Of a stretch of 64,000 bases of DNA, positions 24,628-56,403 are shown in pieces. The position numbers were made by a program, and so were the translations under genes. A model generated the notes under the pieces. The model was not told where the DNA came from. It did no database searches and was given only the letters and a program-made list of their open reading frames with translations. Each line of letters opens with the position of its first letter. Within the stretch, counting starts at the first letter, position 1. Source of the DNA: Physcomitrium patens (Eukaryota > Streptophyta > Bryopsida > Funariales > Funariaceae); NCBI RefSeq assembly GCF_000002425.4, contig NC_037273.1, forward strand, positions 5,950,521 through 6,014,520. Direction: 5' to 3'.

Positions 24628-26247
24628 ATGGCGTGCATTCCCAGGCCACAGCATGGATGCCCTGTGCAAAGGAGATAGTTTTCCGTTTTTCCTTGGAACA
24701 AGGTATGGCCTTTTTTTTAAATTAATGTCGTGAAGTTTACTTTCGAGTGAAACAGTCGATGGCGTCGGATCTTAGAGTAAATTATGAACGAGCAAAGGAT
24801 AAATCGGACCGGCAAAATTTGTCGTATATGTGAAAAGAGTCGGAATGCCGGTCCCGACAATTTCCAATCTCATAGGTCTAAACATCGTGCTTAGTTTACT
24901 CATGTACGCGTTTCCCACGCGCAAGCTAATTTGCTGGTCGATGACTCTGCCTTGGTGAAAGAGTTTTGCTGGACGTGAGGGGGTGCTTCTTAGTGAGGGC
25001 GAACGTCTACAATGTCCCGATGCCCTTTGATGAAACGATGGATGACTGAATTGGTGTCGAATCAATAACGTGTTGGAAGGATAGAATTTCGACGCATCAC
25101 TGTTATAAACCTTAAGCATTCCTCTGAAACAAAAATTCTGAAATTAAGCTTTTCCCTTGCATTTCACAGTTGAATTGTGAAGTTGATTATCTTCTTAATT
25201 CCCCACAGGTTTTAACCCTTCTAATGGAGGAAAAGATTAGGATTAGTAAACCATTGGCTAGCTGCTTCCGTTGGGATAGGTTCGTGACATGCAATAATTT
25301 TCTGGGGAGACATGAAAGTCAATTATGCAGAGACTTCAAGCTGGACCAGCAAAGGTGTAGTCCGCTTATGAACATACTCTTTATACTGCAACCTGCAAGA
25401 ATTCTTTGCAATTAATCTAGAAGAGGATAAGTTTAATACTATTGTTTCTGAGCTTCATTTCCTAGGGGAGGAGCTATTGCTGATGATGACACGATTTAAC
25501 AGATGTTTAGACCGATTTATTTGTAAATTTTATGAAGTGATGTTTCGACTGCAGCTCTGAGCTTACCAAGATTCAAGAATGGATCTAATTTGATTGGCAC
25601 CTCGCAAGGGTCACTCTTGGTGAGATTTGAATGACGATTCTACTCATTGGTTAATCTGGTGCTAACTAGGGCGACGTAGTTTGTTTTGGTCAATTTCTTC
25701 ATTTTTAATCGGCTGCTGAGCTTCTCTCGTCAAGTTTAATCGAATCAATCTTCACTATGACACATTGTATGGATTTTGTGACGGTTGGGAACAATTTAGG
25801 CTTTACAACAATATAGAAGAAGGTGACTACTTGGCGTGTACCCTGGTTGCTGAGTCGATATTTTTTGTCAAGATTACAACAAACAAGGCTGTGAAAAGTC
25901 TGTTTCCTTACTCGATTCGAATGCTGAAGTGTCTTTACTGGCTGCCAAAACTCAATATGATGATGGATTGTATTACAAATTATCTCTTTGGAGCTCCTCG
26001 GACAAGGCTGATGAAGTCCTTATTTCAAAAGGAGGGGAAAAACGTAGAATGAAGCAGTACAAGAGTAATACTCTTTTTGCTTTCAAAATACTTCCCTATA
26101 TTCATCAGCAGGAACCAAAGACCTCGGATGCTGGGATTAAAGAGATAGACATGAATATTCACCATCTTGTGGGTCTCGACAAATCTATAACAAAAGTTCA
26201 AGCCAGCGTCTGTCACTTAGGAGAAGAACGTTGTTCTAAAGAATTAA
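24628..26247 (+). pseudogene. 5' half of a split multi-B3 (REM-like) gene
   Basis: B3 proteins are plant DNA-binding transcription factors. The start is uncertain (ATG at 24628 or 24653). After an intron, an exon at 25210 reads VLTLLMEEKIRISKPLASCF, the first strand and helix of a B3 domain. The domain's end is at 25765-25880: GFCDGWEQFRLYNNIEEGD followed by SIFFVKI, matching the family pattern GW..F...N.LEEGD....L....F.V.I. A linker follows in a shifted frame (from about 25890: EKSVSLLDSNAEVSLLAAK). It is rich in Ser, Lys and acidic residues and runs until an LTR element interrupts it at 26248. The frame change near 25890 and the lack of any ending mark a broken gene. The matching second half appears to be at 54190-56403. 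Two unrelated B3 fragments remain possible. Confidence 0.65.
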
Positions 26248-26503
26248 TTGAAAGAATAATCCAATAGGGAATGCCATTAATTCTTGAGCCTGCCGAATGT
26301 AGTGTATCTGATATATCTTACCCTCATGTATTTTACAGTAATAAACTAGTACATATACATATTCTAGTTCTTGTGGTAGCACACAATCAATGTTACAAAA
26401 TGGACATTCATTTATGTTGCAAATACAAATGTGCCAAACACTTTGTGGAACTTCTGTTATTTGTTGAATAAGTCTCAACTTGTCATACAATACTATTCAA
26501 TAT
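26248..26503 (-). repeat. Copia LTR, left copy
   Basis: About 256 bp. The stretch around 26390-26500 aligns with 54050-54184, sharing GTTACAAAATG/GTTATAAAATG and CACAAATG. On the minus strand it follows a purine-rich tract at about 26504-26524. The outer edge is set by the AATTAA shared with the right junction. Confidence 0.55.
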
Positions 26504-27424
26504 TCCTCCTCTAGAAGTGGGGCTTAATTCTCTACTAAAACAAGATTAAACATATCTTTGAAAGCTAGAAATTTATCTCTAGAAAGAGATTTTGTGAAGT
26601 TATTTGTTGCCATGTGCTTTATAAAACAATATTCTAACCTAATCTATTTTTTTTCTACACATTGCCTAATAAAATGATATTATATATCTCAATGATTTAT
26701 ACAACAATGATATGTTGGATTCTTAGCAATAGCAATAGCAATAGCATTATGATTATTCTTATAAATAATGAGTTTTTCTAGTTTGAAAATGTCATAATCC
26801 CTAAGTACTTTATGAAGCTACAAAGTTTTTCTTATTGTAGTGGTCAAAGTTACATACTTTGCCTCTATTAATGAAACAAAAACTAATGATTTTTTCTTGC
26901 TTGATTAAGTGATAATTGCGTTGCTTAGTATATTTGTATAATTACCTACTGAATGGTGTATCTTTGTACAACTTGCTCTATCTGCATTATTATAATCTAC
27001 AAGTTGAAAACTTACTTTTTTGCTTCCATACTATAATACCAAATTTTTATTTGTTGTAAGTAATAAAATATTAGTTTGATTTGTTACCAATGCAAGATAC
27101 ATAGATATACCATGTATTAAGCAAAGTGCTGACAAGCAAATGCAATGTTGTACCTTATATCATTTGCAAGATACAACAATAAACCTAAAGCTTTTTGATA
27201 AAGCTTTATATCTTTTGCATCAAAAAGATTATTATTCTCATGCTTAGTGAGATGACCTTATATTATTGGTGTTGGAATTATCTTTATATATTTTATTTCA
27301 AATTCCTTCAAATTTCAACAAATGTAATTAATTTAACTCAAACTAATAGTACTATTTTTCTAATCTTACAAGAAATTAATGTAAAAAAAATGATTAGGTT
27401 CACTAAGGCCTTTTATTTTAAAAT

Positions 27425-27896
27425 TGTCACGGACACAAAATACAGACTTGAAATCTAACAAGAAGTTTAAGAAGAAGTGGCAGAACTAGATTAAACAGAT
27501 GAGTACAAGAACAACACCAGAAATGTGAGCTAGAACTCCAAGAGATGTGTTGTCGAGACTGAAGAACTCTTCAGCCTCGACTCCTATATATACTACTGGC
27601 CTATGGTTCTAAGGAAGCGCATCAAGAAGCTTCTCAAGAACTATGAATCTTCTCGAGCAACTATCCAAGAGCTAGGAAGCTTCTCAAGTAACTTCCTAGA
27701 ATCTACTAGAATATTCTAAGAATCTTCTAGAGCCTTCTAAGAGAATCTTTAGGGAATCTTCAAAGAATCTTTAGAGAATATTTGAAGAATATTCTAAGAA
27801 AATATTCAAGGAATCTTCTGGAAGTTTCTAGAGACTTCTTTCTAGGAGGTTCTAGAAACTTGTCTCTAGAAAGGACTAAGGACTATGTCCCTAACA
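27425..27896 (-). repeat. 3' LTR of the young gypsy
   Basis: Reads TGTTAGGGACAT to CGTGACA on the minus strand. It contains a TATA box at about 27585-27594 (minus) and, just upstream of it, a dense set of heat-shock-element motifs described separately. Confidence 0.93.
27626..27857. promoter_or_regulatory. Array of heat-shock-element motifs in gypsy U3
   Basis: GAATCTTCTGGAAGTTTC at 27811-27828 is four perfectly spaced alternating nGAAn/nTTCn units. Eight more GAAnnTTC or TTCnnGAA cores start at 27626, 27645, 27676, 27709, 27720, 27754, 27787 and 27850. The array begins about 30 bp upstream of the TATA box in the element's own direction. The sister LTR has the same array with one changed base in the four-unit core (33872-33889). 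Heat-shock-factor binding is inference from the motif. Confidence 0.7.
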
Positions 27897-30800
27897 TCAC
27901 CTCCTCTTTTAGCTTCGAGGTCTCCGAGAAGCAATGTTATCGTCAGTCAATACCAACGCAAGAAAATGAAGATCTGTCGCATAACCTCTGCTATGAACTC
28001 CAATTGTTGTTCACGAGGCAAGTGATTCAATGGTCCTTGAAGCCAACGGTAGTGGCCCACGCCTTCAACTTCTGACCAAGCATGAACCTCTGTGTCTTCA
28101 TTGTGAAATTGTCCTACAAACACTCCTTCTAGCTGACCATTGTAGGCAGGCTCGACCTCAAATACAATCACCAGCGATCTGTTGCTTGGAATCCTTCGAC
28201 GTCATCGTGGTACAAGCGGTTCTTCATCTTGCGGTCGTCTTTGTGAGCTAGTTGCTTGAGATGACATGACAAGTGTAGTATCTTGGCTATCCATATTCAA
28301 AGGCTAAAACAATAAGAACAAACTTGGGCTACTAACAAAGTTCTACGCTATCTTGGAGAGAATGACTACATCAACTATGGATTTTGGTGGTGCTCTCTCC
28401 TCTTTTCTGTTTTCTGGATGAGCAAGCTTCAGTAAGAAGCTATCGTCGAACCGGCTTGGGTTTCTCAGGATATCGTCGATGAAACTCCTGTACCTTTTGC
28501 GGCGCATTCGTGAGATTTTCGGCCGGCTCCCATGTTCGTTCATTAATATCGTAACCGCTCCAATGCACAAAGTATTCTAATTTACCCCGTCTTTGCCGTG
28601 AATCCAGGACCTTTTCCACCTCGTATTCTTCATGGTTCTCTATTTCTATGCTAGGTGGTGGACATTGTACTCTTCCAGGAAAAGACGATTCTCGATAAGG
28701 CTCCAACAAAGAAACATGAAAGACAGGATGTACCTTCATAGTAGCTGGTAACTCCAGACGATACGCTACAGGATTGATCTGCTTCTGGATAACAAATGGT
28801 CCCAACCTCCGATAGTCCAATTTGTCACATGGCCGCTTGGTCTTAATATTTCGTCGAAGCAGCCAAACTTTGTCTCCAATCGTGAATTTAGGTGCCTGAT
28901 TCCGAAATTTATCCGCGGACGCCTTGCAAGATTCTTGGGCAGTTTGCAATTGAAGCTTCAATGTAGTTTGAAGCTGCGAAAGCTCCTTCACCAATCCTTC
29001 AGCTGCCGGATTGTTAATCGTTGACGAACTCCATAAGTCAAGCTTCGGATGGTATCCATAATTGGAAAAGAATGGCGTTTGTTGAGTTGACGCATGAAGG
29101 ATGTTGTTATATGCGAACTCGGCTAGCGGTAGATATGCGACCCAATCATCTTGTTGATAGTTGATGGTGCAACGTAAATATTGCTCTAAAACTTGATTCA
29201 CCCGTTCTGTTTGGCCGTCCGTTTGAGGATGAAATGCCAAAGAAAGCTTGATATCCACCTTCAATATTTCAAAAAGAGATTTCCAAAACTTTGACACAAA
29301 CTAGGTTCCTCGATCTGATACGATATCATCTGGTAGACCATGATATCGATACACATTATCAAGAAAGAGTCTTGCTGTATCTTCGCTTGACGATGTCTTC
29401 TTGCAAGGGACAAAATGCGCCATCTTTGTAAGCCGGTCTACGACAACAAAAATGCTGTCAAATGAATTCGATGGTGGTAGATCCATAATAAAGTCCATGG
29501 AAACCGAAGACCATGGTCGGCGCGGAATAGGCAATGGCTGTAGAAGTCCATAAGGCCGATGTCGAGGGTTTTTGGATCTTGAACAAATGTCACAAGATAC
29601 AACAAAATCTTTCACATCCTTCCACATTTGAGGCCACCAGAAATCGCAGGAAATAAGTTCCAAGGTCTTATTGAATCCAAAATGTCCCGCAGCTGGAAAG
29701 TCATGACGAGATTGAAGAACTCGGAGTCGTGTTGGCCCTTTTGGGATATACAACCGCTCTTCGAAATATACTAGATCTCCTTCCATCTTGAATTTATCAT
29801 TACTAGCATGTTGCTTGATATCAAGGGCTAGAGAATCTTCAATGGTTGCGGCCCGTACCTGGTTGAGGAAGTCAGCATCAATTGGTACAATAGCTGTGTT
29901 GAGCCGAAATTTCTCTGGCTTCAACAATGTCATGCACTGTTGATCAAATGCTGTATCTCCAGCCTTTGGCACGAGATATGATCTCCTTGATAATGCATCG
30001 GACAACCCTTGTTGCTTCCCAGGCCGATAAGTAATAATAAAGTCGAACCTGGATAGCGACATACTCCACCGAGCTTGATGCCGATTCAAAATCCGAGCCG
30101 ACATAAAATATTCCAAATTCTTGTGATCCGTATATACGGTCACTGGATGTGCAGTTCCTTCGAGAAAGTGTCGCCACTCTTGGAAAGAATCTACTATAGC
30201 AAGGAGTTCCTTATCGTGGATCTCATAGTTGATCTCAGCAGCAGAGAATTTTCGAGAATAGAACGCAACTGGATGGAGCTTCTCATCTACGCCCATCTGT
30301 GAAAGTACAGCTCCCAAAGCAAAATCCGAAGCATCTGTCTCCAAATAAAAGGCCTTTGTAAAGTCCGGATGTACCAAGATTGGAGCTGTAGTAAATACCA
30401 TCTTCAAATCTTGAAATACTTTTTCTGCGATAGGTCCCCATTCGAGCTTGTCCTTACACATTAACCGAGTGAGGGGGGTAGCAACTTGAGAATAATTCTT
30501 GATGAAGATCCGATAGTAGTTAGCAAATCCAAGAAAACATTATACGTCCCTAACCGTCTTCGAAACTTTCCAAGACATGATTGCTTCCACCTTCTTTGGA
30601 TCCATCTTCAAGCCTTCCATAGTCGCGATGAATCCCAAAAACTCCATCTCAGTTTGGTGAAATAAGCACTTCTCCAATTTGGCATAGAGTCCTCGCTCCC
30701 GTAGTTTTTTGAGTACCAGACGAACGTGCTTCTCATATTCTTCCTCGTTCTTAGAAAATATCAAAATATCATCTAGATAGATGACAACAAAATCGTCTAG

Positions 30801-33100
30801 ATGCTCTCGAAAGATGTCATTCATCATGTGTTGAAAGACCGCTAGAGCATTAGTAAGACCAAATGGCATGACATTGTATTTGAAATGGCCATACTTTATT
30901 TGGAATGCTGTCTTCCATTCATCTCCTTCCTTAATTCGCACAAGGTTGTAAGCTCTCCTTAGGTCAATCTTTGTAAAGATCCTTGTATGCCCAAGTTGTT
31001 CTAGAAGACTAGAGATCAAAGGCAGTGGGTAGCGATTCTTTTTTGTCACCTTGTTGAGACCTCGATAGTCCACGCACATCCGTAGTGAGCCATCCTTCTT
31101 CTTCACAAATAAGATTGGTGCCCCAGTTGGCGACTTCGAATGACGGATGAAGTTCTTGGCTAGATTCTCGTCAATGTACTTTCGCAACTCAGTCAACTCC
31201 ATCTGCGATAAATTGTAGATTGGTCCAAAAGGTGGTTGTGCTCCTTCTTGCAATTCAATGGCACAGTCATAGGGTCGATGCTCTGGCAGCATATCAGCAT
31301 TCTTCTTTTCAAAGACATCTTTGAATTCTTCATACTGCTTTGGAATAACCAAAGTCGGAGTTGCATCTTCTCGAGTCGGAGTTGCGAAGATGACAAGAGG
31401 TGTATTTTACTTGGCTTCCTTCATGAAAGCCCTTGCACCTATAAACAAGGATTTATTTCTAGACATTGTCTTGGCAGATTCCACCTTCAAGGAGTTTGTT
31501 GGAAATGTCACTTTCTGCAACTTCCAATCTATCAATGGATTATATCTATCAAGCCAAGATAGTCCCAAAATGATAGGACATGAAGGGGTCTTGATAACAT
31601 TAAACACAATATTGCTCTCATGGTTTTCAAGATGTACCTTCAATAGTTTAGTTTCATGGATAACATTGCCCGAAGACAATGGTCGTCCGTCTATGACTTC
31701 TACATGGACAGGCTTAAGTTTCTTTGCAAGAGAAATATTGTGAAGCTTGGCAAACTCTTCATCTATAAAGCAAGCGGATGCACCCGAGTCTAATAAAGCA
31801 TCGACTTGTAGTTCTTGAATACCCAGATGTAAAGGTACCATAAAACAATCTGAAGGTTGAGCTGAGAGAAAGGGACCTTGATTAATTTTGGATGTTGAGA
31901 TGTCCAGCCGCACGGTCCCTATTGTGGCTGGGCGTCCTTATTTTTCTGCATGCTTATACTCCTGAGTCTTGTTGTTTGAGGCTTCTGTTTCTTTCGACAA
32001 TCTACAGCTTTATGGCCCGCTTCTCTATAATATAAACACAAGTTTTGTTCAAACCGTCGCTTCCTTTCCTCAGCTGTGAGGGGTTTGAAACGTACCGCAT
32101 CAATTTACATGGGTTCAGGATCTGTGGAGTGATTCTCTGGACCTTTTGAAAATGTAGCAAATGCTCCATCATTTCTCCAGCCTGATCGTCTTTCTTGTCG
32201 TAATTCAAAGAGGCGGTTGTCACAAATAATTGCCTGAGATATAAGTTCTTCTAAAGTGTCCGCCTTAGGCATGGTGATCAATAAGTTCTTGACATCATCT
32301 CTCAGTCCATATCGAAATTGTGTCATGAACGCCTTATCATTCCACTCAAGATCACATGTAAGCTGTTGAAATTCTGCAGCATAGATTGCAGCAGAACGTG
32401 ATCCTTGTCGCAGATTTTGTATCTTTCTTTCAGCCACTCTTTCTCGATCGCTATCTCCAAACGCAGCAATAAGTCTCTCTATGAAAGCCTCTAAGTCGTA
32501 CAATATTGGAGAATCCTTCTCCAATAATGGAGCAAACTAAGAGCGAGCATTTCCTGATAGAAGAGTACCTATGAAAGCAACCTGGGTAAATCCATTCGGA
32601 TAACGAGAAGGATATAGGCGTAGGTAAAGCCGTACTTGTTGCACAAAACCTCGAAAGTTGGGTCTTGTTCCGTCAAACTTGTCTGGCATACTCGCTTTTG
32701 GTTCTTTCGTACTAAACCTTGAAGTATCTATAGGGATCGTATGTGACACATGTCTTGCTTCTCTCAGTCGAATAATCTCTTGTTGTAGGCTATGAATTTT
32801 GCGTCTAGCTTCTTCAGTCACTAGATCAATTTGAGGTTCTTTACTTGGATTGCGAAGAAATGCAATCTCCTTTCGTACACTATTCATAAGAGCTTGAAGA
32901 TCTGCAAGAGTTGCCACTCTATTTTCTACTTGTGGAGATGCATTGTCTATGACCTGGTCTACTTCCATATTTAGAGAATAGATGGATTAAAATTTTGAGA
33001 GAAGAAGAAATTGCTAAGTCTCTTGGAGAAAATTGTAGCACTACATGTCACTAAAATCTACTCGGAGAAAAGAAAAAAAACACTAAACGATTTCAGTTTT

Positions 33101-33460
33101 AGAAGAGGGTAATCCGCAACCTCTAAAAATGTCTCAATGCTTTCGAGAAGAGGGGTAATCCGCACTCTATCAAGAAGGCAAAGCTCTGCAATCGATGTTA
33201 ACAGTCTTTTTTACTAGCTATGCTAAACAAAAAGAAGGAATTAATATCAGTCCAAGAGAGGGTAATCCGCAACCCTTAGAACGCTCAAGTATCTCCAAGG
33301 AAAGGGGTAGTCCACTCTCTGCCTCAAAGAACTAAGCTCTGATATTGTGATTGAGAAAATATCAGTTTAGAGGAAGGTAATCCGCAACCCCTAAAGCGCT
33401 AGAATACCCTCAAGAAGAGGGGTAATCCGCTCTCAAACAAGAAGGATTCAGCTCTGATAT
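33101..33460 (-). repeat. Three leader repeats with primer-site-like ends in the young gypsy
   Basis: Units near 33101-33200, 33252-33345 and 33361-33460 each carry two copies of a GGTAATCCGC-type motif (one reads GGTAGTCCAC), and each ends in GCTCTGATAT or, in the first, GCTCTGCAAT. On the element's strand the latter reads ATATCAGAGC, close to the end of the usual plant LTR primer-binding sequence TGGTATCAGAGC. Units two and three begin with ATATCAG and end with CTGATAT, so each could fold on itself. The unit nearest the LTR is about 25 bp from it. Confidence 0.75.
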
Positions 33461-33485
33461 TAAGATAAAGGTAGTCTCGACAAAC

Positions 33486-33957
33486 TGTCACGGACACAAA
33501 ATACAGACTTGAAATCTAACAAGAAGTTTAAAAAGAAGTGGCAGAACTAGATTAAACAGATGAGTACAAGAACAACACCAGAAAGGTGAGCTAGAACTCC
33601 AAGAGATGTATTGTCGAGACTGAAGAACTCTTCAGCCTCGACTCCTATATATACTACTGGCCTATGGTTCTAAGGAAGCGCATCAAGAAGCTTCCCAAGA
33701 ACTATGAATCTTCTCGAGCAACTACCCAAGAGGTAGGAAGCTTCTCAAGTAACTTCCTAGAATCTACTAGAATATTCTAAGAATCTTCTAGAACCTTCTA
33801 AGGGAATCTTTAGGGAATCTTCAAAGAATCTTTAGGGAATATTTGAAGAATATTCTAAGAGAATATTCAAGGAATCTTATAGAAGTTTCTAGAGACTTCT
33901 TTCTAGAAGGTTCTAGAAACTCGTCTCTAGAAAGGTCTAAGGACTATGTCCCTAACA
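33486..33957 (-). repeat. 5' LTR of the young gypsy
   Basis: Same length as the left LTR (472 bp) and about 97% identical. The element's transcript should start in this copy and run leftward. The TATA box and motif array are conserved. Confidence 0.93.
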
Positions 33958-34061
33958 ATAATGCTTTTGCTATTTATCCTTGTATTTCAAAAGGCTCTCA
34001 AACTTCTTGCTATTAATTACTACATTATTGATATAAATAATCAGTATAAAAATTAATCTCT

Positions 34062-34176
34062 CAACTAAGATTTTATTAAAGAAGGATCTAACTCTAAGCA
34101 CTTTCAACTAAGATTTTATTAAAGAAGGATCTAACTCTAAGCACTTTCAACTAAGATTTTATTAAAGATCTATCTA
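34062..34176. repeat. 43-bp tandem repeat, about 2.6 copies, in copia remnant
   Basis: Units start at 34062, 34105 and 34148 with CAACTAAGATTTTATTAAAG. The first two are essentially identical, and the third runs out after about 28 bp. The array lies in the copia reverse-transcriptase remnant. Confidence 0.85.
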
Positions 34177-34666
34177 AATTCTTATTCCATATAAGTCTAG
34201 ATTTCTTTAAGGTATACAAAGTATTTAGTAAATTCAACACTTTACTTTTGTGATCAAGTATAACTTCTAATCCTTTTTAAATCTTTATATAAATTTCTTC
34301 TTTTTTAAGTGCATTATTTAAATAGGCTAAAATAATATCAATTTGTAACATATTTCAATCAAAGATGGTAGGAATTATAAAAAATATATAAATTATTACA
34401 TAATAAGTAATTGATGCAAAAGTCTCTTTGTAATTAAGATCCTTTACTTTAATAAGATCTTTTGCAATCAATTGTGCTTTAAAACATTTAATAAAACCAT
34501 TGCTATTAAGCTTTTTTTTAAAAATCCATTTTGAATCCATAGCTTTTTTACCATTTGATAAAAATTAAAATTGTCATATACCATGATCTTTCAAATAATC
34601 ATATTCTTCTTTTATAGAATGACTCTATTCCTTACAAAGAGATGAGCTAATGACTTGCTCAACAAT

Positions 34667-35903
34667 GTTGTATTTTGTGAAGTTTGTTTGAGAATGCATG
34701 AGATACTTGGTTGTAGAAGGTAAAATAAAATTTATAATAAGAAAGTCCTAAAAATTCTAATAGAATCCTAAAAAAAATCTAATTAAATCTTAATAATGCT
34801 AATCAATCTTTAATCTCATTTTAAATAAATCTAAAAGTATTCAAAATAAATTATAACCAATTCCTATAGCTATTTTAAAATCTCAATAAATACTAATCAA
34901 ATCATTGATTTCAACTCAAATTTTATCCATTTTAATCTAAAAGTAGCTAATAAGTATACAAAATTTGAAAAAAAATCAAACTCACTGATTAAAAAAAAAA
35001 AGCTCCAAAATCTCTTTGATGTTGGCCACCTTCTTTCTCCAAATTAGATGTTGATCTTTTAGTAATAATTTTTTCTTAGTAAAATATTTAATAACTTCAA
35101 AATTTTTTTAATGTATAGATTTTTAAGTCTAGATTACTTTCATCAATTTTTGCTTCAATCAATCTTATAGATTTTTTAGGATTGCAAAAATCTTCACTAA
35201 TCTTAAATTTCAAATATTTGAGTTTTTAACCTATTAAAACTTTCTATCTTTCAATCTAACTATTTTATTAATATTAAAATTTTCAAACATATTATAAACA
35301 AGGATAATAAAAAATTTATAAAATTTTATCTATAAATGTGCTATAGCACACATACAATTTTAAAATTTTTAAAGTTCTTTTTATCTTTTAAAATCCAAAT
35401 CCACTGAGTATATCTCTTACTTTGAAAAGCCCTCAAAAACTCAATATGCCTTCAAATCACATAAAATTAATTTTTTAAAAACCTTTCATAAGTTTGCTCT
35501 CAAATTCCACTCTTTGATTAATTAAAGAATCCTAGAATTGCCGTAGGTGCATGATTTTGTACCTTGGGACTTGATTTTGATTTTAGTTTACAATTGATTC
35601 TTTTTAGATATCAATTTTTAGTATTTTCAAATAATTTTTGCTAAAACCTATTCTTAACTCTCTCTTAAAGATGTATATATGATTTTTTTTCTTAATGTAT
35701 TTTGTTTTTCTTTATTTATGGCCTTATAAAATAAGTAGAAGTCTCTTTTTTTAAAAGACAATATTAACACTTATTAATTTTTATTGTCTTTTCATCTATT
35801 ATCTATATTTTTAAGATAATTTATTAAAATATTTTTATTTAAGCTCCTTGATAATGCAATTTTTTCTTTTTTCTTTCACCTAATGGCTTTCTTATAATAC
35901 AGT
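34667..35903 (+). mobile_element. Solo-LTR-like insertion, family E
   Basis: Starts TGTTGTATTTTGTGAAG within the copia remnant. Its 5' end matches 48139 on, and its last 400 bp (about 35520-35900) align well with 49520-49850, including a shared stretch AAGATAATTTATT. No internal coding part is present, which fits a solo LTR. It is old and AT-rich. The right edge is approximate. Confidence 0.6.
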
Positions 35904-36540
35904 AATAATTTTTAGTTTTATATGTTCATCAACTTGAAAAATATCCACTATTTCAATTGACATGTCATAATCTCCTTAAAAAAAATTATTCTCATTTTTT
36001 CAAGGCATGTGATGCATCTTACTGCTACTTATCATATTTATTGGATTAATCCTATTTATATAAAAATATATTAGTGGTAGAGCTTGAATAATTGCCTCTA
36101 CTTTAGATTAATGGAATTATACTACTTTTATTGGTATGGAGTTTGCTTCCTTATCAATTATGTTTCTACAAAATCCATTGTATAGATGTAATGCCAAGCC
36201 TTAAAATTTGGATATTTTTAATTTACTTAGATATTGAAAATCAAGCAAATCAAGCTTGTTACCATAATTTCTATCTTCTCCACTCTTCTCTTAAAGAGTT
36301 GATGGCTTACTAAAAAAATCATCATTGTTATCAAAGAAAATTATATCTTGAGTAAGAATTATCTTTTTTTTTTTTAGAAAAATATAATATTTTTTCCTAT
36401 ATCTAAATATCTAACAAGAATTTCTTTCTTAGCCTTTGCATCAAACTTGTGATGCCTTTTTTTTTTCGCATATAATACCAAGCAAAATAACCAAAATAAT
36501 GAGCGTATTGAAAAAAAGATTTTTTACCATAAAAATCTTT

Positions 36541-37690: not shown

Positions 37691-38119
37691 TACCCTTACA
37701 ATAGATAGAATACATAAACCAAGTTTTGAAGCAATATTTGATATGTACCATCAACTACCAATAAGATGATTAGAGAACTCTTGTATTATTGGCAAAGTTT
37801 GCTATAATAACACAATACATTCTTCTATATAACAAATATCTTTCTTAATTAATTATGATTATCATCCATAACTTTATGTTTACGACTCTTAAAGGTTGAT
37901 AATCTTGTAACAAAAGATTTAACAAATTTTTTATCTAAGCTATATACAATGATAAAAGTATAACTTAAAGAAATTAAAGAATAATAAAAGATTAATGCAA
38001 ATGCCTATTGCAAAGAACAATCTCAATTTCATATTGGTAATAAGGTATGATTATTTTATTGTAATATTAAGATTAGTTGCCTTTGTAACAAATTAGATTA
38101 TTATAAGTGAAATTATTAT

Positions 38120-40366: not shown

Positions 40367-40398
<32 letters not shown>

Positions 40399-40425
40399 CT
40401 TAAGCAATATTAAACATTTCTTTTC
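39679..40425 (+). repeat. Old gypsy LTR, first copy
   Basis: Starts TGTCACGAATATATA and aligns along its length with 52612-53153 and with about 53328-53860. It carries a T-run at about 40371-40398. The sequence just after it (around 40431-40449, GTTATAATAGCAGAGC) looks like a worn primer-binding site (TGGTATCAGAGC), so it acts as a 5' LTR for the element to its right. Confidence 0.65.
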
Positions 40426-44106: not shown

Positions 44107-45190
44107 CACTGTTGGAGTAGAGAGAGTTTGCCTCAAGAAAACATTGGGCTTCTGGCTGTCATTAATTATTCAATCAAGCTTGAAAATAAGAGAAGCCCTA
44201 AGTTTATATATAATTTTTTCCCTTTTGAGTAATTACACCAAATAGACAATCCTCAAGTAACTCACAACTTCCAAAATATGATAAAATCTTCTAAAACCTT
44301 GTTTATTCTTATGTGGAGATTTTTCCGAACTTCAACACCTCATATCTCCTAATCCAACCGTCCAAACAAATTCAAATTTTACATAAGGTACTGATGTATT
44401 CTTATTAACTTCTACAACAATTTTCAACTGCAAATTCGTTGCAGATCTTGAGATATCTTGAAAATCCTAACAGTCGCTTTAAACCCTTGTCTTTATACAT
44501 CCGTGTGAAATTTTCTTCATATCTCACAAAATATAAGCTCAAATTCTACGAAGTTTGTATGTATAGCTTCTTAATACAAAATTTTATATTTTCCAAAAAG
44601 TTTGAGCCAAAAATTTGTCCGAAAACTCAAGTTATGGCTCCAATCATTACTACAAACAAACCTGCTTACTTACTGCTTTTGATTTGGAAGCGCCGCCTTC
44701 AACTCCTTACAACTCCTTCATATAAACTCCAAAAGCAATAAATATTTTATGAAAGATGTAGACCTTAAAATCTTCGTTCTAGTCGCACCTTCCAATCTTC
44801 AAAAGCTGTTGTAAAAGTCCTCGTACCCTCAAAAGAGTAACAATATGTCTTAAATTAACACCTTAATTTCAAACGGCTATAATGTTTTCATTCTAACTCC
44901 AAATCCTCTAATTTTTGTACAAAAATTGTACCTCAAATCCTAAATTTTACAACCATAGCTTCTAATCTCCGAATGCTTTCTTTGAAGTCGCCGAAACCCT
45001 TCTTAAGATTGCGGGCAGCCTCCTCAAAGCCCATTGGACATGGTATTCGACCAATAGGGATGAAGTTCTCCATTCCTTGCCTTCATCCAACCATGCCTTA
45101 CTTTCATCCCTCCCAATAAGCCTCCTACTAGTTTAGATTTTTATCCTTAGGCTTCTACTTCTCCCAAGGCTTCATACTGAACATTTAGGT

Positions 45191-45229
<39 letters not shown>

Positions 45230-45405
45230 ATTTAATGTCAAAATCAAAACAAGTAAAGAAAAAAAGTAAAGTTTCTTATGTCAACTCTTTTTAATTTAAT
45301 CTACTAGCCACTCTAACACACATCTAGATTTATCAACATATAATATGTTTTAACTAATTTTTACATACTGTAAGCATTTACAGTGCGACAACGCTATTAT
45401 ATATT
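44107..45405 (+). mobile_element. Solo-LTR-like insertion, family F, copy 2
   Basis: Begins TGTTGGAGTAGAG directly after reverse-transcriptase sequence of remnant B, and ends about GCGACA before that similarity resumes at 45405. It contains (TA)n at 45193-45229. The target duplication is not clean. It is a solo LTR by structure. Confidence 0.65.
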
Positions 45406-45649
45406 AGAAGATTCAAAAAGTAATAAGAGATGTCCAATTCTTTTTGAGATTTTTTAATTATTATTAGATCTTCATTAAAGATTTTTCTTAAGTTGAAGCT
45501 CTATTTATACATTTGGCTTATAAAGAAAAATTTCAATAGAATCAAGAAACACAAATAATATTTGAAGCTTTAAAGACAATCTTTATTTCTACACTAATAT
45601 TGTATCGTGTCAACTCTATTAAGCTATTTTTTTTTTAATAAAAATAGAA

Positions 45650-47060
45650 ATATCTGTGTCATATTATAACATGATTATATGGTGAAAGATAATAATAAGG
45701 ATCTTATTATAAAAGAACCAAGTTAAATGATAAAGTAAAAAAATATAAATAAAAGATAGGAAGGTAATAAAACTTTTATTAGTAATATTACTTTATTAGA
45801 AAAGAGGCTTCTATCTACTTTGTAAGGCTGTAAATAAGATAAAATAAGATAGATTAGAAAAATAAAAGATATAGACATATGTAGAAGAGAATTAGGAGTT
45901 TATTTTAGTAGAATTTACCTCAAATGGAACAAAAATTTATACCTGAAGAAGAATAGTTATTAACTAGGATCAAAATCAGATCCCAAAGCATAAAACTAAG
46001 CCTTGACAACAATTCTGGAATTGTTTGATTGATCAAAGAGTGGGATTGGAGACCAAACTTGATAAGATTTCTATTGGCATTGATTTTAAGGGTTTTGAAT
46101 AGATAATGAATTTGTAAGAGCTTTGCAAAGTTGATATTGTTTTTAGTGACTCTAATTTTTGAAAAATAAAATAGGATTGATGTTTTTAGGTATTTTTAGG
46201 AATTTGGTAATAAATATATAAGTAATTTTTTAAAAATTTATAGATATAGTTGTGCTTAATTTGTTCTATGAATTTAGATTTGATCAAATAATTAGATTGA
46301 AAAGCATGAAGGTTTTTGTAGATTATAGTCTTGGAATTCAAGATTTTACAGACTAGTCAGTTTTTCTTAGATATTTATCAATTTTCCATTTAAATTGAAG
46401 CAAACCTTTTTTCTTAAAGATAGTTGGCTTGATTTCCAACAAGTTTTTAAAATTTGGAAGCAAAGTAATAGTTAAATCAAGAGTAATTGGCTCTAAGAGA
46501 TTAGCATCAAGGTCAGAGAAGAAGGTTGGGTGATACTCAAGCATATTTTTGAGATTATTGTCTATTTAGTAATTTTGATCTTATTCAAATTTTTTGTGCT
46601 TATTTTCAATTTAATTGTTAAGAAGTATGTAAAATTTGAGTTAAAAATAATAATTTATTTATTAATTATTGAGGTTTAAATCTACTATAAGAATTACTTG
46701 GGATTGATTAGGATTTGATTTAGGATTTGATTTAGAATCAAGATTAGGATTTTGGATTGATTTAGGATTTGATTAGCATTAGGATTTGATTTAGGATTTG
46801 ATTTAGATTTCTTTAGGATTTTTTTAGGTTTCCTTAGGATTTTCTTGTATTTTTTTGTAATTTATTTAAAAAATAAATAAAATAAATAAAATAAATAAAA
46901 TAAAATAATAATAATTGGACTTAATTGATGCTTGATTATGGTTGTTAAGCTTCTATAGCAATTTATATACGGCTTTATTTGAATACTTAAGACTTCTTAT
47001 TATAAATTCTTTTTATCTTCAATAGGCAAGTGTCAAGCACATTTTCAAGTAAGATTTCAC
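45650..47060 (-). mobile_element. Solo-LTR-like insertion, family E, opposite orientation
   Basis: The reverse complement of about 45.95-46.05 kb aligns with 49.50-49.60 kb. The block at 46690-46850 is the reverse complement of the AAATCCTAATC-type minisatellite at 48.45-48.87 kb. An (AAAT)n run lies at 46864-46905. It falls between two RNase H pieces of remnant B. Confidence 0.6.
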
Positions 47061-48138
47061 ATAATACGACATCGGACTTTGCTTTGAATGCCATATTATT
47101 ACAAATAAAAATAGATGATAAACCTTACTTAATAACTTTGTATTCTAAAAAAATTTCAATAGCCGAAATTAACTATAAGATCTACAACAAAGAACTTCTT
47201 ACAATCATGGATTGATTTCAAGAATGGTGCTATTAATTAAAAGGTGCTCTCAATCTAATCACCATATATACAAATCACAAGAACCTTGAGTATTTTATGT
47301 CAATATATATTTTGAATTGTTGCTAAGTTTGTTAGAGCATGTCTTTGTTAAGATTTGAATTCAAGATCACTTATTGATTATAAAATGAATAAGATTTGTC
47401 AAATTTATTTTCTAAATAACCTTACTTTGTATTAAAGAAAAAAAATTCTATTTTTCATCAATAACAAATAATTCTCTTGAAGCTAGAGTATCTATATCTT
47501 CAACCAATGAAATCAATATTAATTTTTGATTCAACTTTGATTAAACAAGTTCAATCAAGTATGTCTTTTGATTCTATTATTTGTGATATTAAAAAAAATC
47601 CTTCAAATGTTTAATGATACTTCTAAGTTTGAATTTAAGAAAAATCTATTATATTTCAAAGAACACTTATATATTCTAAAAGGTAAAACTCAATTATGTA
47701 TTCTTCAAACTCATCACAATTTTTCAATAATAGGATATTTTGGGTATAATAAGACATCAGAGCTAATATTCAAGGATTTTTGGTAGCTCCAAATGTAGAA
47801 GGCGGTCAAAAATTTTATATAATCCTATGATATTTACTCAAGTTTAAAAACTCCTCATCATCAACTTTACAGACTTCTTCTGCTATTATTTATTCTAAAA
47901 AAACCATGGTTTTCTATTTCTATGGATTTTATCACGGATCTTTTAGTCTCAAGTTCTTATGATTTTATATTTGTGATGGTAAATTATTTTATCAAGATGG
48001 TATATTTTGTACCATATACAAAATCTATCACAAATGAAGAAACAACTAAGTTTTTCCTTAATAACATCTATATCTATCATGGATTGACTAAATTTAATAT
48101 TAGATAGGAAAGTTCAATTTGTATTAAGATTTTGAAGA

Positions 48139-49895
48139 ATGTTGTCTTAATACGTGAAGTGTTGCTTGAGAAAATACCATGTACCTAGCTATGGAAGGTA
48201 GAATAAAAATATAATAATAAAATATTAATTCTAATATAATACTAAATAAAATCTAATTAAATCTTAAAAATACTAAATAAGCTTTAATCAAATTAAAAAA
48301 TAAACCTTAAAATTTTTTTAAAAAAAACAATAAAAAATCTTAAAAGAATTGAAAGATAATCCACAATAAAACTTAAAAGAATCCTTAAAAAGCCTTAAAA
48401 AAATATTAAAATAATCATAATATATCTTAAATAAATCTCAATTAAATTCTAATTTAATCCTAGTTGAAACCCTAATAGAATTCAATTAAATCCTAGATAA
48501 ATCTTACATCCTTAAATCAAATCTTAATCAAACTCTTAATCCTAAATTATATCCTAATCAAATTCTAAATCCTAAACTAATTCCTTATCAATCCTAAATT
48601 CTAAACCAAATCCTAAACAAATCCTAATCAAATCTTAAATCTTAACCAAATCCTAATCAAATCCTAAATCCTAAATCAAATCCTAATCAAATCCTAAATC
48701 CTAAATCAAATCCTAACCAAATCCTAATTAAATCTTAGATCTTAAATCAAACTTAAATAAAATCTTAACCAAATCCTAAATTCTAAATCAAATTCTAACA
48801 AAATCCTAAATCCTAAATTCAACCCTAACCAAACTCTAACCAAATCCTAAACTTAAAATCAAATCCTGATTTCAATATCTTTTGATTAAATAGTTGAACT
48901 TGTTTAAAATTTTACAAATCTCTCAATTTCTTAATTATAAAAAAGCACAACAAATTTGAAGACAATTTCACTTATCAAATGGAAGAAAAATCCTAAAATC
49001 TACTTCAATGTTGACCAACATCCTTCTCCAATCTTGATCATGATCTTCCAATGCTAGTATTTTTTCTTTGCATCATTAAATTGATCTCAAATTTTTCATA
49101 TATATAGAAAAATAAGTCTACTACCTACATACTTAATTTTCACTCCAATTCAACTAGTAGATTGTAATAAATCTTAGAAATCCTTGCTAAATCTAAAATT
49201 CAATTTTTTGAGATCCTAATCCTATTTAACCTCAATAATCTTCAATTCAACCATTAGATCAAGCTAAAATTCTCAATACATATTAAACATAATTATAAAC
49301 ATTGACCTACAAATTTTTATCCATATATCTGCTACAAAACTCTTGAAACTGCCTAAAATGTCAATCCTCTTTTATTTCACAAAAATTCAAGTCATCCAAA
49401 ATAATCTTGATTTTATAAGGCTCTTACAAAGTCATTACAAATTCAAATCATACAAAATCAATGTTTATAGAAACCTTATTAAGTTTTCTATCAAACCCCA
49501 TTTTTTGATCTCTTAAAGAACCTCAAAGTCATCATAGGTGTCTAATTTTGTACCTTAGGATCTGATTTCAATCCAAGTTGATAACTGGTCTTTTTTTGGA
49601 TATCAATTTTTGATTCTTGAGGTAGATTTTGCTAAAATCTACTCTTAATTCCTTCTTATACATACCTATATCATTTAATTTTCTAATTTACTTTGTTTTG
49701 CTTTATTTATGGTCCTACAAAGTAAATAGAAGCCTATTTTGTAAAAGGCAATATTAGTACTTTTAGTTTCACTACCCTTTTGACTATTATCTATATTTTT
49801 AAGATAATTTATTGTAATATTTTGAACTAAGCTCTTTTATAATATAATAATTTCTACACTCTATTATCTATTAGTGATGCTATATCACAACAATA
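48139..49895 (+). mobile_element. Solo-LTR-like insertion, family E, longest copy
   Basis: Starts TGTTGTCTTAATACG and ends ATCACAACA, a matching TGTTG/CAACA pair. It lies inside the integrase remnant of B, whose similarity continues directly at about 49896. It holds the long minisatellite at 48450-48870, which explains its extra length over 34667-35903. Confidence 0.65.
48450..48870. repeat. Degenerate AAATCCTAATC minisatellite
   Basis: About 420 bp of imperfect 10-18-bp units built on AATCCTAA, such as AAATCCTAATCAAATCCTAA. It lies within LTR family E. The reversed copy at 46690-46850 has only about 160 bp of it. Confidence 0.8.
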
Positions 49896-50410
49896 TTTTT
49901 TAAGATTCTAAAGATAGATATAAAACAATCTTCAACTTTCTATCGTCAAACTAATAGACAAACCAAGTATATAAATTAAGTTTTGAAGTAATATTTAAAG
50001 TGTACCATCAACTACCAACAAGATAATTAGACAATTTTTTTGCTATTGGCAAAGTTTGCTTATAATAACATAGTATATTCTTTTATGTAATAAATATCTT
50101 TTTTTTTCTAATTATGCTTATCATCTATAATTTGATGCTTTTGATTTTTCAAAAGTTGATAATCCTATGGCAAAAGATTTGGCAAATCATTTATTTGAGC
50201 TACATACAACAATAAAGGTGCAACTAAAAAAAACTCATGAAATACAAATGCCTATTGCAAGGAACAACCTCATTTTTATAATGATAATAAGATATGATTA
50301 CTTTGTCATATTATTAAAATTATTTTCTTTTGTAACAAGTTGGATTATTGTAAACTTAGACCATTTTTTATTTATAAATAAATAAATCTAATTGCTTATT
50401 GGTTACATTT

Positions 50411-51740
50411 ATTAGTGTAATATTATGTGTTATCTTGTTTGAGAGTGCATTAGGTATTTAGTTGTGAAAGATAAAATTGTGCTTTATAAGTATTCAAAAA
50501 ATCCTAATAAGTTTCATCCAAATAAGGAGAATATTATTTGAATTTTAATTCAAAAGTACTTGAAGTTAATACAAAGTACTCAAAAATATCCTTCTAAGTA
50601 ACCTCAATCCTATACAAATTCCAATTGCCTTATTACTTTCATAATTAGGTAATTTTGATTTCTCTTTGCAAGTCCTAATCATAGTCAGTGAGCTTCAATA
50701 AGCTGTAACTTCTAATTTGACTATTTATTTCATACAAAAATTTTCATATAAATGCCACTATAAGTCTTTTACATGCTTAAAAAAATTAATTCTAATTCAA
50801 CTCACAGATTGTGAAAAAATGTCCAAAAACCACACTAATATCACTCAGCTACTAATTCAAAAGTTGATGAACATGTTCCAATAGCAATTTTTCCTGCTTC
50901 AACCATTAACTTTAAGTCAAAATTAGTATGTAGCTTGATCTTTAAGTTTTCTAGTACCATGCCAAATTTCACCTATTTTAACTCATAGATCTTTAGATAT
51001 CATAAAAATCCTATTTAATTCCAAACCGATAACTTCTAATATCTTCTTGTATCAAAAACCAAATATTTCTTAACCACACTATTAGATTAATACAAAATTT
51101 TATTTACATTTAACACATTTAACACATTTAATCAATCGAGCATTATCAAATTTTAAATTATAGATATAGTACCATTTGTATGATCTAGCCAAAAGTACTA
51201 GTCCTAATTGTATTATATAAATTTATAGTCATCAATACAAACCCTAATTTTGAACAACAATTTCAAAGTCATTACAAATTCTATAAAAATAAAACTTATA
51301 CTTTTGAAATAAGCTTAAATCTCTCTAATCTTGGTTGCTAATCTCCAAAATTTTCCATAATTTTTCCTAAGTAGCCGTTTTAGTAGCTAGAGGTTTAATT
51401 TTAATCTTGTCCTACAAATGATCGATTCTTAAGTATTAATCCAACTTATTTTAGGAATTTTTTAGCCTAATTCTATCCTCAATTTAATCTTAGTTTCAAC
51501 CATATTAATTATTATTATTATTATTATTATTAATTATCAATTTATAGCCTTTTTAAGATAGTAAAAAAAAATACAACCTAAAAGGTAAAATTACTAACCA
51601 ACCTTTAATCTACTAGCTATTAAGACAAGAAAATAAATTGAGAGGCTTTTATAAAAGCCATGTATAAATATCATAAATTATCATTAAATTAAGATCATCA
51701 GATAATTATTTTTTATTATATTTTTATCATATATTCATAT
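50411..51740 (+). mobile_element. LTR-like insertion related to family E
   Basis: Gypsy integrase similarity stops at about 50410 and resumes at about 51745. The first 100 bp (TGTTTGAGAGTGCATTAGGTA near 50428) resemble the start of the copy at 34667, while the rest is too diverged to align by eye. (ATT)n lies at about 51504-51530. Confidence 0.5.
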
Positions 51741-52435
51741 TATAATACGACATTGGAGTCTATAAAAATCCATCCCGTATTTCACGTGTTTTTTTTGGAG
51801 CCATATAAGATAGTGAGTATTTCAAAAAGAAGATAAATACCATTGTCTATTATAGAAGTAGATAATAATCAAGAATTTGAAGTAGAAGAAGTCTCAGACT
51901 TGAGGTGGCACTCACTTAAGTTAAAATATCTTATTCATTGGTTTGAATAATATATTATTGAATACATATAGGAGCTAACAAAAAATCTTACAAATGCAGC
52001 AAAGAAGGTCAAAGCTTTTCATCGATGACATCTATCGAAACCAAGATGAAGGATAATAAATCTTTGCTATAAAAGATATATAATTTATAAAAGATTATAT
52101 TTTACCTTCTATCTTTGTTTTTAATTTTAGTATAATTGTAACATTAAAGAGATGGAGAATCAATAGCTATTAGATTCAACTCAAGAGCTATCATTTATTA
52201 ATTTATCAAATAAAACATTACAATTATCACAATCTTAAAGATAAAATAGGAATGAAGACCTTCAAAAATGACATATTTTTCTTCAAATAAATGACAAGAT
52301 ATAATGCATTTGGTATCACGACCTAAGAAAAAAGTCTCAATATTTGGTGATTTTATTAGAAGTAGGAACAATTCTTGATGGTATTACAAATATTTTGTTT
52401 GAAAGAAGTTATAAAGATCTCAATAATGATCAAAT

Positions 52436-53860
52436 AACATGGTAGTCTTCTCACCTTCAAATGAGACATTACCAATGATTGAGAAGATTTAACAATTATC
52501 TTTAAAGAGAATAAAGATTAGAGTACATATCAAATACAACTTACTACATCTTGGACTTCTTCAATATATAATCATCACTCCTTGTGGAACTTGTCCCTAG
52601 AAGGAAGAATAATGTCATACACATATATTTATTATAATTATTACCTAAATATTATGAATAGATAGAAATAAGTATAATTAGATTAATTTCATAATATCTT
52701 TTAGAAAAGCTTCTTAAAAGCTTTATAGATGTTGCTTTGACTTTACATATGTTTGTATATTAGAAACTTGGTCTAAAAATTAACCATGTGTAACAAATGT
52801 TGGTAGCTTACAAAATAAGCTAACTATATGGCACACATATAAAAAACTTGCCTTATAAGTTAAGATACATGTTATGCAAAGTCAATATATTTTGGAGGTC
52901 CTATAGAATAGCACCATGTAGCTCTTAAGTAGATAATATATATAAAGGTAAGAATGAAGCTTTCTTCATTCTTGTTAATTCTTTTCTTATTTCTAGTATG
53001 ATTTCAAGAATTTATAGTTTTCTTGTCCTTTGGAAATAAACATTCCGATTTTTTTTTTAATATACATACTTATTTATATTTAATTTGTCATATTTCTTTA
53101 AGAAAGTTTCATTTATTTATTTGCTTTCATCGAGTTCTTGTTCTTGATACAAGATAGTCTTTTCACCTTAGAATGGAATATTATCAATGGTTGAGAGGAT
53201 CTATCAACCACCTTAAAAAAGGAACAACAATCAAAGTATGTGATAAATACAATTCATAGGATCTTGGACTTTTTCAACATATAATGATTGTTTCTTGTAA
53301 AACTTGTCCTTAGAAAGAAAGATAATATCACAGACATACATATTCAATTAGATAAGAAATATTAGATAGAAAATAAATATAGATAGATTTAATATTATCT
53401 TGTGGCATAGCTTTTTAGAAGCTTAATAGATATATATTTGATTTTATACATGTTCATAGCTGATCGGTAGGTTAGAAACTTAGCTAACAAGTTAGTCATA
53501 TGTTGCGTGTGTGGATAGTTTTAGTACAAGCTTACAATGTGGTGCACATATAAAAAACTAATCTTACAAGTTAAGACATATGTCTTGAAAATTGAACATG
53601 TGTTGGAAATCTTATAAGATGTTGCTACATAGCTCCTAATTGAATAGTATATATGAAAACAAAGATGAAGCATTCTTCATTCTTGTCGTTGCCTTTCCAA
53701 TCCTTAGTCTTCTTTTAAGACTTTTTAATCTTCTTATCTTTGGCACTAGCCACTTTAGTTCAATATATTACCATCTTTGAATAGTTGTCTAGTCTTTTTG
53801 AGTGACATAAGAGTGTATTGAGATTTTTTTTCTTTGAAATTCATGTCTTTGACATTATGA
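52436..53860 (+). repeat. Tandem duplication: gypsy 3' end plus LTR, twice
   Basis: The 175 bp before the LTR at 52612 (52436-52611) recur at 53154-53327, each followed by an LTR copy (52612-53153 and 53328 to about 53860). This could come from local duplication or from LTR recombination between tandem elements. The copies are well diverged, so the event is old. Confidence 0.65.
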
Positions 53861-54189
53861 TGAAACAAAACAACACTTCTTCAAAATCAGTAGTAGCAAG
53901 AGATCAGCTCCATTAGAAATCAAAACTAATAGTAGTAATTTGATGTTTTATCTTTTTGAGTGATATAATTATCTTTTACATAAGTTTTTCATCTAAAAAG
54001 TCATCTAAATTTTCCATTCAATAATTTTCATCCATAAATTTAATACTATGTTATAAAATGAACATTTATTCATATTGCAAACACAAATGAGCCAAAACAA
54101 GGGAAAGATATTTCTATGTAGAACTTCCCTAATTTGCTGCACAAGTCCCAATTTATAGTATAAACCATAAGGTACTATTTGACAATTAA

Positions 54190-56403
54190 GCCACACCTCT
54201 TCAAATAAGCAAAATTTTGATATTGATAAATAAGATCATTTGTCAAACCAATATAGGAGCTATGTGTAAAGAATTATACCTCCTAATTTGTTTGGGAAAA
54301 TAGAATAATCATTTTACTATGAACAAGTTTCTATGCCACATGACAAGAGCAAACAAATTATCAAATAGCAAGACAAATGGGAAATTCAACATTGCCTACC
54401 TCGGTTGCCATTAAAGGTTGAGTTTTGGACTCCAAACCCACATGTTATAGATCCTCTCAAACCTTTTCAAGTGTTCAATGGATTCTCAATTACAAGTAAA
54501 ATTCTGGTCATTTTGGATCTTTCTGGGATATCATGTCTTGAAATTTTACTGAAAACACATTGAGTTTTGTATTCTCCTTTTTGAAACACTTCTTCTTTGA
54601 GAGTTGAATTAGATGATATTGTCAGGGTACAACCAATGGAAATGCATAGTAGATACTGCATTTACCTCACTGCTATTCAGTAGTAATGTCATTCTCTTTA
54701 TCTGGTACAGCTCAGCACAAAAGTGATTATTCTTCTGTTGCTGCTTTATGCTAAATTTAATGGCAAATTTATGGTGTGGAGCTGCTATGACGAAGAAATA
54801 GCGCCAGGATTCAGATGTGTCTTAGACTACTGGATAGGATTTCTTAGATACCAACATAATTACGAAGCTTCAAGAGTATTGTATAGGAAGAGTTATACAT
54901 ATTCAGATATGCAATCTCTACGATCTCGACGACGTCCTGTAAGTATGGAAGAGAGGAAGAATGCTGAACTGGCTGCAGCGGCTCTGAATGCAACAAATCC
55001 CAGTGTAGTGGTGGTTTTTAACGAAGTCAAGTGTGTACGCTCACTTCACTGTGGTAAGTCTTAGGTTCTCAACCTTCATCCCTTGTCATCAGTCAGCTGT
55101 GCATGCATTTAAGGTGCATTTTAGTGTGCATTACAGTACTATTCTTGTTTGAGGTGTCCTTCAGGTTTATTCACTTATTTATTGCCGATCGTGCGATGAT
55201 CAACCATGCAGTCGGAGATGGTTGAATTGTAGCTTTTAGTAACTTTGCGAAGCGAAGTACTAAATCAATATTGTAAGTTACAGTGGAGATACTAAGAGCT
55301 TTAACTACCAATCAATACATTCCTGACATCCTAATGCTGATAAGAACTAATTCAGTGAAATGCTAAATCTTGAAATCCTATTTTTGCAGTCAATTCCGAG
55401 TGCATTTTCCAGGAAAAAGCTTCCGAAAAATCTTGTTCGGGTGACTATGGGATTCTGCAGGCCAGAAAGCATCAGCTCGTTGGGCTGGGAACCGAAAGAA
55501 GAGTGCATGCTTGAAAGGATTTAGAGCATTTTTGCAGTCTCATCATTTCGAAGAGGGAGACGCTTTGGTATTTGAGCTTATGGACCCGAACCCGAACAAT
55601 CCTGTCTTCTTTATACATATTAACAATGTTGTTGAAGTTTAAAGAAACAGTGGTCGCAGACACACCTGTTCAGAATTCTGTTCAAGATGCTTCTCAATCA
55701 CTGAGTGACCCTGAGGTGAGAAGTAATTCACCTACGACTGTCTCGGATCTGCCACCCACGATGGCACAGGGTGCAGCAGCAAAAATGAAAAATAAAAGCC
55801 CTGTTGTGGAACGGCGCCCTGGAACTCATGATATGTTCCAAGGATCTCAGAAAGATATATTTGATATGTCCGTTACTTTGTAAATATGGGGACATATTTC
55901 GAACCATATAAGAACGTCTCTTCCTTAGTAACGTCTCAACTCTAGATACAACCATGAAAAGTCCTCATGAAAATGCAACACTGGAGGAGTTAGAGAAGCA
56001 GTATCAGGAGGTTGTTAACACAAACAATCCAACATTGCTTCTGATAAAGGCCCACATCTATTTACAAATCTCCCTTACAGCGGACGAGCTGGCGAGTGCC
56101 CTCGTATTCAGGAGAAGTTAAAAGCTTCATTGTTGCACAGGAAGGTGTCTTGGAAGACGGTGTCGAGGTCACCTTGACAAAGCCAGAAACGTCTTTTGAT
56201 CGGGGACGAGGGTGTGTCCAGATTCTTGGTGCTGCTGTTGGGCATGGAGGGACTCAAGAAGTTGCCAGTTTCAATAAAATGGATTTTTTTTTGTGCTGGC
56301 GTAGTGCCACTGGCTGCAAGAATGACGATGATTGGCATAGGGAGTTGCAACTAAGTGATACGGAAAGAGTACCTAGTAACCAGGATGCCGAAGACGGTGT
56401 CTG
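54190..56403 (+). pseudogene. 3' half of the split multi-B3 (REM-like) gene
   Basis: After about 500 bp of unassigned sequence, an exon ends at 55053 with RRPVSMEERKNAELAAAALN and then PSVVVVF, the usual lead into a REM-type B3 domain. The domain continues as SSVYAHFTV, then from 55390 SIPSAFSRKKLPKNLVRVTM, KGFRAFLQSHHFEEGDALVF and PVFFIHINNVVEV. Single extra bases shift the frame near 55020 (TTTTTA), near 55450 (ATGGGATT) and near 55640 (GTTTAAAG), each next to a short homopolymer. A Ser/Thr-rich tail follows (DASQSLSDPEVRSNS). Then NATLEELEKQYQEVV and PTLLLIKAHIYLQISLTADE at about 55970-56090 resemble the opening of a further, worn B3 domain. The length and domain order fit the missing part of the fragment at 24628-26247. 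The gene is not translatable as it stands. Confidence 0.7.

Follow-up and report, generated by a model that had tools for sequence, protein, structure and literature searches.

A B3 pseudogene of Physcomitrium patens divided by a nested long terminal repeat retrotransposon insertion

The splitting of genes by transposons is general knowledge. In plants, long terminal repeat (LTR) retrotransposons nested within one another are well known, according to the accessible parts of two reports (PMC6911290, PMC11899658). Here, we describe a locus of Physcomitrium patens in which remnants of a B3 transcription-factor gene stand on either side of such a nest, within a stretch of 64,000 nucleotides (contig NC_037273.1, here C21, positions 5950521-6014520; hereafter the window). 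The window has a G+C content of 33% and contains no N, and the genome searched with it comprises 470 Mb in 101 contigs. Like the plant nests described in the accessible part of PMC6911290, the nest contains an LTR element within an older LTR element; unlike those, its oldest layer sits in a gene. The locus is a B3 pseudogene divided by an ordinary nested LTR retrotransposon insertion, a clear case of a common type of event. When the literature on moss B3 genes and retrotransposon insertions was searched, none of the titles listed dealt with this locus, which is no proof of absence.

We consider it very probable that a single multi-B3 gene was hit by a minus-strand copia element, that the insert grew by nesting and that the host is now a pseudogene. 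The ancestral window gene would have been a diverged duplicate of a four-B3 gene on contig C7 (locus L010), and one copia-type LTR retrotransposon, on the minus strand, would have landed between domains 1 and 3. The insert would then have grown to 27.8 kb as other elements entered it, including a gypsy element some 1.8 million years ago, and the host gene would have become a pseudogene. We infer that the copia insertion killed the gene.

The genome has 66 places that match the B3 domain (PF02362) at E <= 0.001. A chosen part of these places was fetched as 28 loci, some of them overlapping, and among these L010 was the best match of both window halves. Its four B3 domains span C7:17736816-17741163 and lie, by Pfam and in locus coordinates, at 2317-2550, 3330-3554, 5614-5811 and 6437-6664, with short first exons of domains 3 and 4 that end near 5092 and 6190, as read by eye. 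The gene remnants that flank the nest are as follows.

25759..25875, plus strand: C-terminal half of B3 domain 1 (54% amino-acid identity over 39 amino acids with L010 2428-2544)
25875..26264, plus strand: linker after domain 1, in a different frame from about 25875 (open stretch 25854-26264 compared with L010 exon 1)
54378..54497, plus strand: end of a linker and first exon of B3 domain 3 (54420-54497 is 69% identical in amino acids to L010 5015-5092)
54915..55056, plus strand: linker and first exon of B3 domain 4 (65% amino-acid identity with L010 6052-6153)
55375..55639, plus strand: B3 domain 4, second exon, frameshifted near 55447 (matched to L010 by tblastx in two frames)

In a tblastx comparison of the window with L010 (E 0.01), the pieces fell in order at 2428-2544, 5015-5092, 6052-6153 and 6422-6688; they did not overlap, and each was on the plus strand. 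The last of these consists of two matches in different frames, one to L010 6422-6496 (60% amino-acid identity) and one to 6473-6688 (71%). When the whole genome was searched, the best other match of the domain 1 piece was on C7 (E 1.5e-7; the next, 0.17), the C7 match of the domain 3 first-exon piece was the only other one at E 1 (E 5.9e-5), and the domain 4 second-exon piece again found C7 as its best other match (E 1.3e-27, 76%; the next, 6.8e-5). The domain 4 piece also matched domain 3 of L010 more weakly (38%), a likeness that is expected among B3 domains. The linkers agree as well: the open stretch 25854-26264 aligned to L010 exon 1 with a score of 55 (shuffle maximum 49; none of 300 as high) and begins with YNKQGCEK, where L010 has YNKFGCEK, while 54915-55056 scored 113 against a shuffle maximum of 44. 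Judged by sequence similarity, the window pieces are homologous to an intact multi-B3 gene, with which they share the domain order, linker motifs and 54-76% protein identity in the matching stretches. The C7 gene, however, has long open exons and no insert, whereas the window copy has the 27.8-kb insert and two frameshifts (a net one base missing relative to L010 near 25875 and a net two near 55447), and is missing domain 2 as well as portions of domains 1 and 3.

Pfam gave weaker signals. The piece 55445-55639 matched B3 at E 1.7e-5 and 25.1 bits, under the cut-off of 30.1, the left piece (25720-26049) had 12.4 bits, and 54369-54560 gave no match. Since no window piece reached the PF02362 cut-off, which all four B3 domains of the C7 paralog passed, the window holds remnants of a B3 gene and not a full member of the family. 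The stronger evidence for B3-like sequence on both sides of the nest, which an earlier note on this DNA had placed there on one strand, is the match of both halves to a single paralog. Its further proposal, one gene hit once, agrees with the best match of both halves, their lack of overlap and the relatedness of the LTRs, all within this genome. The halves had also been said to complement each other, which is true in that they do not overlap on L010, but they do not restore the whole gene, since domain 2, the second exon of domain 3 and part of domain 1 are missing. Traces of a third B3 domain past 55.9 kb were not confirmed: Pfam found no B3 in 55912-56118, 56048-56401, 56948-57196 or 57200-57316. 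The tail 55515-55880 aligned weakly to L010 exon 5 (3 of 300 shuffles equally high), and the alignment scores of 55912-56118 and 56048-56401 lay within the shuffle range. The open stretch at 56948-57196 (plus strand, 83 codons) has no Pfam match and no second genome copy at E 1.

Two separate degraded B3 fragments, for example the remnants of a tandem pair, might instead flank a retroelement patch by chance. In favour of this, B3 genes are numerous, with 66 places, and the two halves lack domain 2 and some of domain 3 between them. However, both halves match one gene far best, in order, on one strand and without overlap, and the sequence just between them is bounded by related LTR ends of a single element type, so that we regard separate fragments as improbable.

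The edges of the copia element, the outer shell of the nest, are defined by the following features.

26386..26390, plus strand: left target-site repeat ATCAA (four of five bases match 54185-54189)
26391..~26502, minus strand: 3' LTR of the copia shell (similarity to the right LTR; edge from genome matches)
54049..54184, minus strand: 5' LTR of the copia shell, with a degenerate primer-binding site just inside (alignment to the left LTR)
54185..54189, plus strand: right target-site repeat ATTAA, partner of ATCAA at 26386-26390

The similar copia LTR ends that had been noticed at both edges proved to be related. In the alignment of 26391-26506 with 54049-54184, 88 of the 112 compared bases are equal (17 transitions, 7 transversions, 28 gap columns; Kimura two-parameter distance, K2P, 0.26). 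A stricter local alignment scored 40, and none of 300 dinucleotide shuffles exceeded 26; when the two regions were aligned loosely, the score was no better than chance (132 vs a maximum of 163 in 200 shuffles). The two direct repeats have TG..CA ends, with both TG and CA intact in the right LTR and an inner end of ATA, not ACA, in the left. None of the 38 other genome matches listed for 26262-26560, a lower bound on their number, extends left of query base 129 (window 26390), and five start within query bases 129-133, which marks the LTR edge there. The junction is therefore at 26390/26391, and the left end proposed at 26247 was rejected. Just inside the left LTR, a purine tract was read by eye on the minus strand (26503-26512), and it resembles the tract preceding the right LTR of a related element on C22 (L044). 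Inside the right LTR, 7 of 12 bases match what we take to be the copia primer site (chance 1%). Hence, purine tract and primer-site remnant lie on the sides required by one minus-strand element. Copia elements duplicate 5 bases at the target site, and the flanking ATCAA/ATTAA, equal at four of five bases, may be such a duplication. The hexamer AATTAA, previously put forward as the duplication at both junctions, does occur at 26242 and 54184, and the right copy overlaps the true junction. The left copy, however, is 143 bases away from the left edge, and the window holds 75 copies of the hexamer, so it was rejected as the duplication, with ATCAA/ATTAA as the candidate in its place. Taken jointly with the integrase and RVT_2 pieces described below, the signs at the edges, each modest alone, have a single minus-strand copia insertion as their natural reading.

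The same arrangement bears on whether scaffolding could have put a repeat patch into a normal gene. We found no point in support of such an assembly artefact and consider it very unlikely, since the window contains no N, the frameshifts and missing exons lie within the halves themselves, and the layout of LTRs, purine tract, primer site and flanking repeats is that of a genuine insertion.

Between its LTRs, the nest consists of the following parts.

26503..27424, minus strand: copia shell interior (pol end), left of the gypsy element (72-75% identity to copies L031-L035)
27425..33957, minus strand: gypsy element with chromodomain (LTRs 27425-27896 and 33486-33957; flanks AAAAT/ATAAT)
33963..34662, minus strand: copia shell interior after the gypsy element (L032 525-838 aligns to 34662-34346; RVT_2)
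34663..35908, strand not assigned: block within the copia pol region (L032 521 and 525 align to 35909 and 34662)
35909..36582, minus strand: copia shell interior, C-terminal part of the integrase (73% to L045 7090-7739)
36583..54026, strand not assigned: other repeats, not divided into single insertions (self-similarity; matches to L037-L043)

On the minus strand of the shell, an SH3_retrovirus integrase piece (36377-36523, E 2.8e-4) precedes two RVT_2 pieces (34358-34564, E 1.2e-5; 34154-34276, E 0.023), which is the copia order. All these matches are under the curated Pfam cut-offs, and five of the eight shell pieces scanned gave no match; the segment 26503-27424 reads by eye as RNase H-like, but none of its four scanned pieces matched a Pfam family. 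Short-LTR copia elements of this genome, such as L044, are similar to the shell in their order of LTR, pol pieces and LTR and in their LTRs of about 120 bases, and are 69-74% identical in DNA to the window pieces, but the L044 copy is about 2.0 kb long and lacks the additional insertions of the window shell. This copy, at L044 6855-8871, is a copia-like element of the shell's family that is only about 2.0 kb long with 120-base LTRs. A further copia fragment, of gag, lies elsewhere in the window (63145-63414, minus strand).

The gypsy element is inserted inside the copia pol region, as copia sequence that is almost unbroken in the copy L031 is parted around it in the window (L031 663 aligns to 27418 and L031 652 to 33967). 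Its LTRs are identical at 457 of 472 bases (K2P 0.033), and between them Pfam found gag, protease, RVT_1, RNase H, integrase pieces and a chromodomain in the order of a chromovirus, with the rve core under the cut-off. Likewise, L032 521 and 525 are neighbours that align to 35909 and 34662, so the intervening 1.2 kb is extra. Of the at least eight further insertions that had been proposed, the gypsy element and this block do lie inside the copia element, but the number eight was not established. The seemingly separate pieces in 36583-54026 may be parts of one element, because L041 and L045 carry such pieces side by side. One of the repeats, at 53600-53855, is a member of a very abundant family (40 scored of 7317 first-look candidates). 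With the rate of 9e-9 substitutions per site per year stated in PMC7466625, the shell would be about 14.5 million years old, a rough figure from 112 bases, and the gypsy element about 1.8 million years; these ages fit the nesting order.

Relative to L010, the window copy is incomplete. The interval that separates the domain 1 match from the domain 3 match is about 2.5 kb in L010 and would be about 0.75 kb in the window with the nest excluded, so that the window is short of about 1.7 kb, including domain 2. The first exons of domains 3 and 4 lie 0.96 kb apart in L010 and 0.42 kb apart in the window, which is short of about 0.5 kb. The first part of domain 1 also has no match in the window in the tblastx comparison. 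None of the six other B3 matches listed for domain 2 of L010 exceeds 42% identity with it; hence this domain looks old and was probably lost from the window copy rather than gained in the C7 copy. Over 182 codons, window and L010 differ at 37, 37 and 102 sites at codon positions 1, 2 and 3, and this excess at third positions indicates that, in one copy or in both, the protein was under selection during much of the divergence. These counts date neither the start of decay in the window copy nor the frameshifts, and the pairwise synonymous divergence (dS) from L010, being saturated, was not used for dating.

The absence of domain 2 and the frameshifts could be older than the insertion, so that the gene may already have been decaying when it was struck. 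It is thus conceivable, at somewhat less than an even chance, that the copia element entered a gene that no longer had domain 2 or had already become a pseudogene, and that the insertion was not what inactivated it, which is compatible with a single insertion into one multi-B3 gene. The probable loss of the old domain 2 from the window copy favours such prior decay, as do the flanking repeats (four of five bases), which argue against a deletion caused by the insertion itself. The crowding of differences at third codon positions, as expected for divergence largely under selection, speaks against it, with the limit that the decay and the frameshifts are undatable.

Several observations weigh against a single gene hit by one copia element. 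The domain 1 piece has just 39 amino acids and a Pfam E of 0.15, and tblastx at E 0.01 found no window counterpart of domain 2 (L010 3330-3554) or of the second exon of domain 3. The target repeats are equal at just four of five bases, for which the chance in this AT-rich DNA is 3-5% (2.6% by composition, 4.5% by sampling), and the primer site agrees at only the 7 of 12 bases given above. Left of the insertion, no similarity between the linker DNA and L010 could be detected, so that the exact insertion point in the gene could not be placed. A DNA-level search with the left half returned only the self match, and among six DNA alignments of window linkers and ends with L010, only one exceeded all 100 shuffles (54378-54422, 19 vs 15). 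Lastly, the flanks of the C7 gene (L046-L049, 39.6 kb) share with the window only repeats of the nest and one weak match of 51 amino acids.

Synteny gave no support for a whole-genome duplication as the origin of the window and C7 pair: these flanks share only repeats and the one weak match, and the C7 matches of a helicase neighbouring the window gene are far away. These weaker matches lie at 2.3, 5.4 and 10.2 Mb, distant from 17.7 Mb. The C-terminal exon of this helicase (window 18571-18858, plus strand) has close copies at C22:2578500 (89%) and C19:13252018 (74%), which are perhaps its whole-genome-duplication partners.

That a remnant, most likely the better-preserved piece with domain 4, is still transcribed and serves as a short B3 protein or as a source of small RNA seems highly improbable; if true, the locus would be a transposon-split gene rather than a dead one. 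As a divided pseudogene, the locus illustrates cleanly how a nest can grow from an LTR retrotransposon that has entered a gene, with the sequence of events and their rough dates read from the paralog, the outer element and the inner element. It also serves as a warning that two gene models flanking such a nest may represent a single pseudogene and not two genes.

Elsewhere in the window, exons of a PHO1-like gene with SPX and EXS domains lie at 4740-7698 on the plus strand, and a reading frame of the UPF0114 family lies at 13605-14027 on the minus strand. A tandem duplication of 112 bases with 96% identity occupies 22229-22452.

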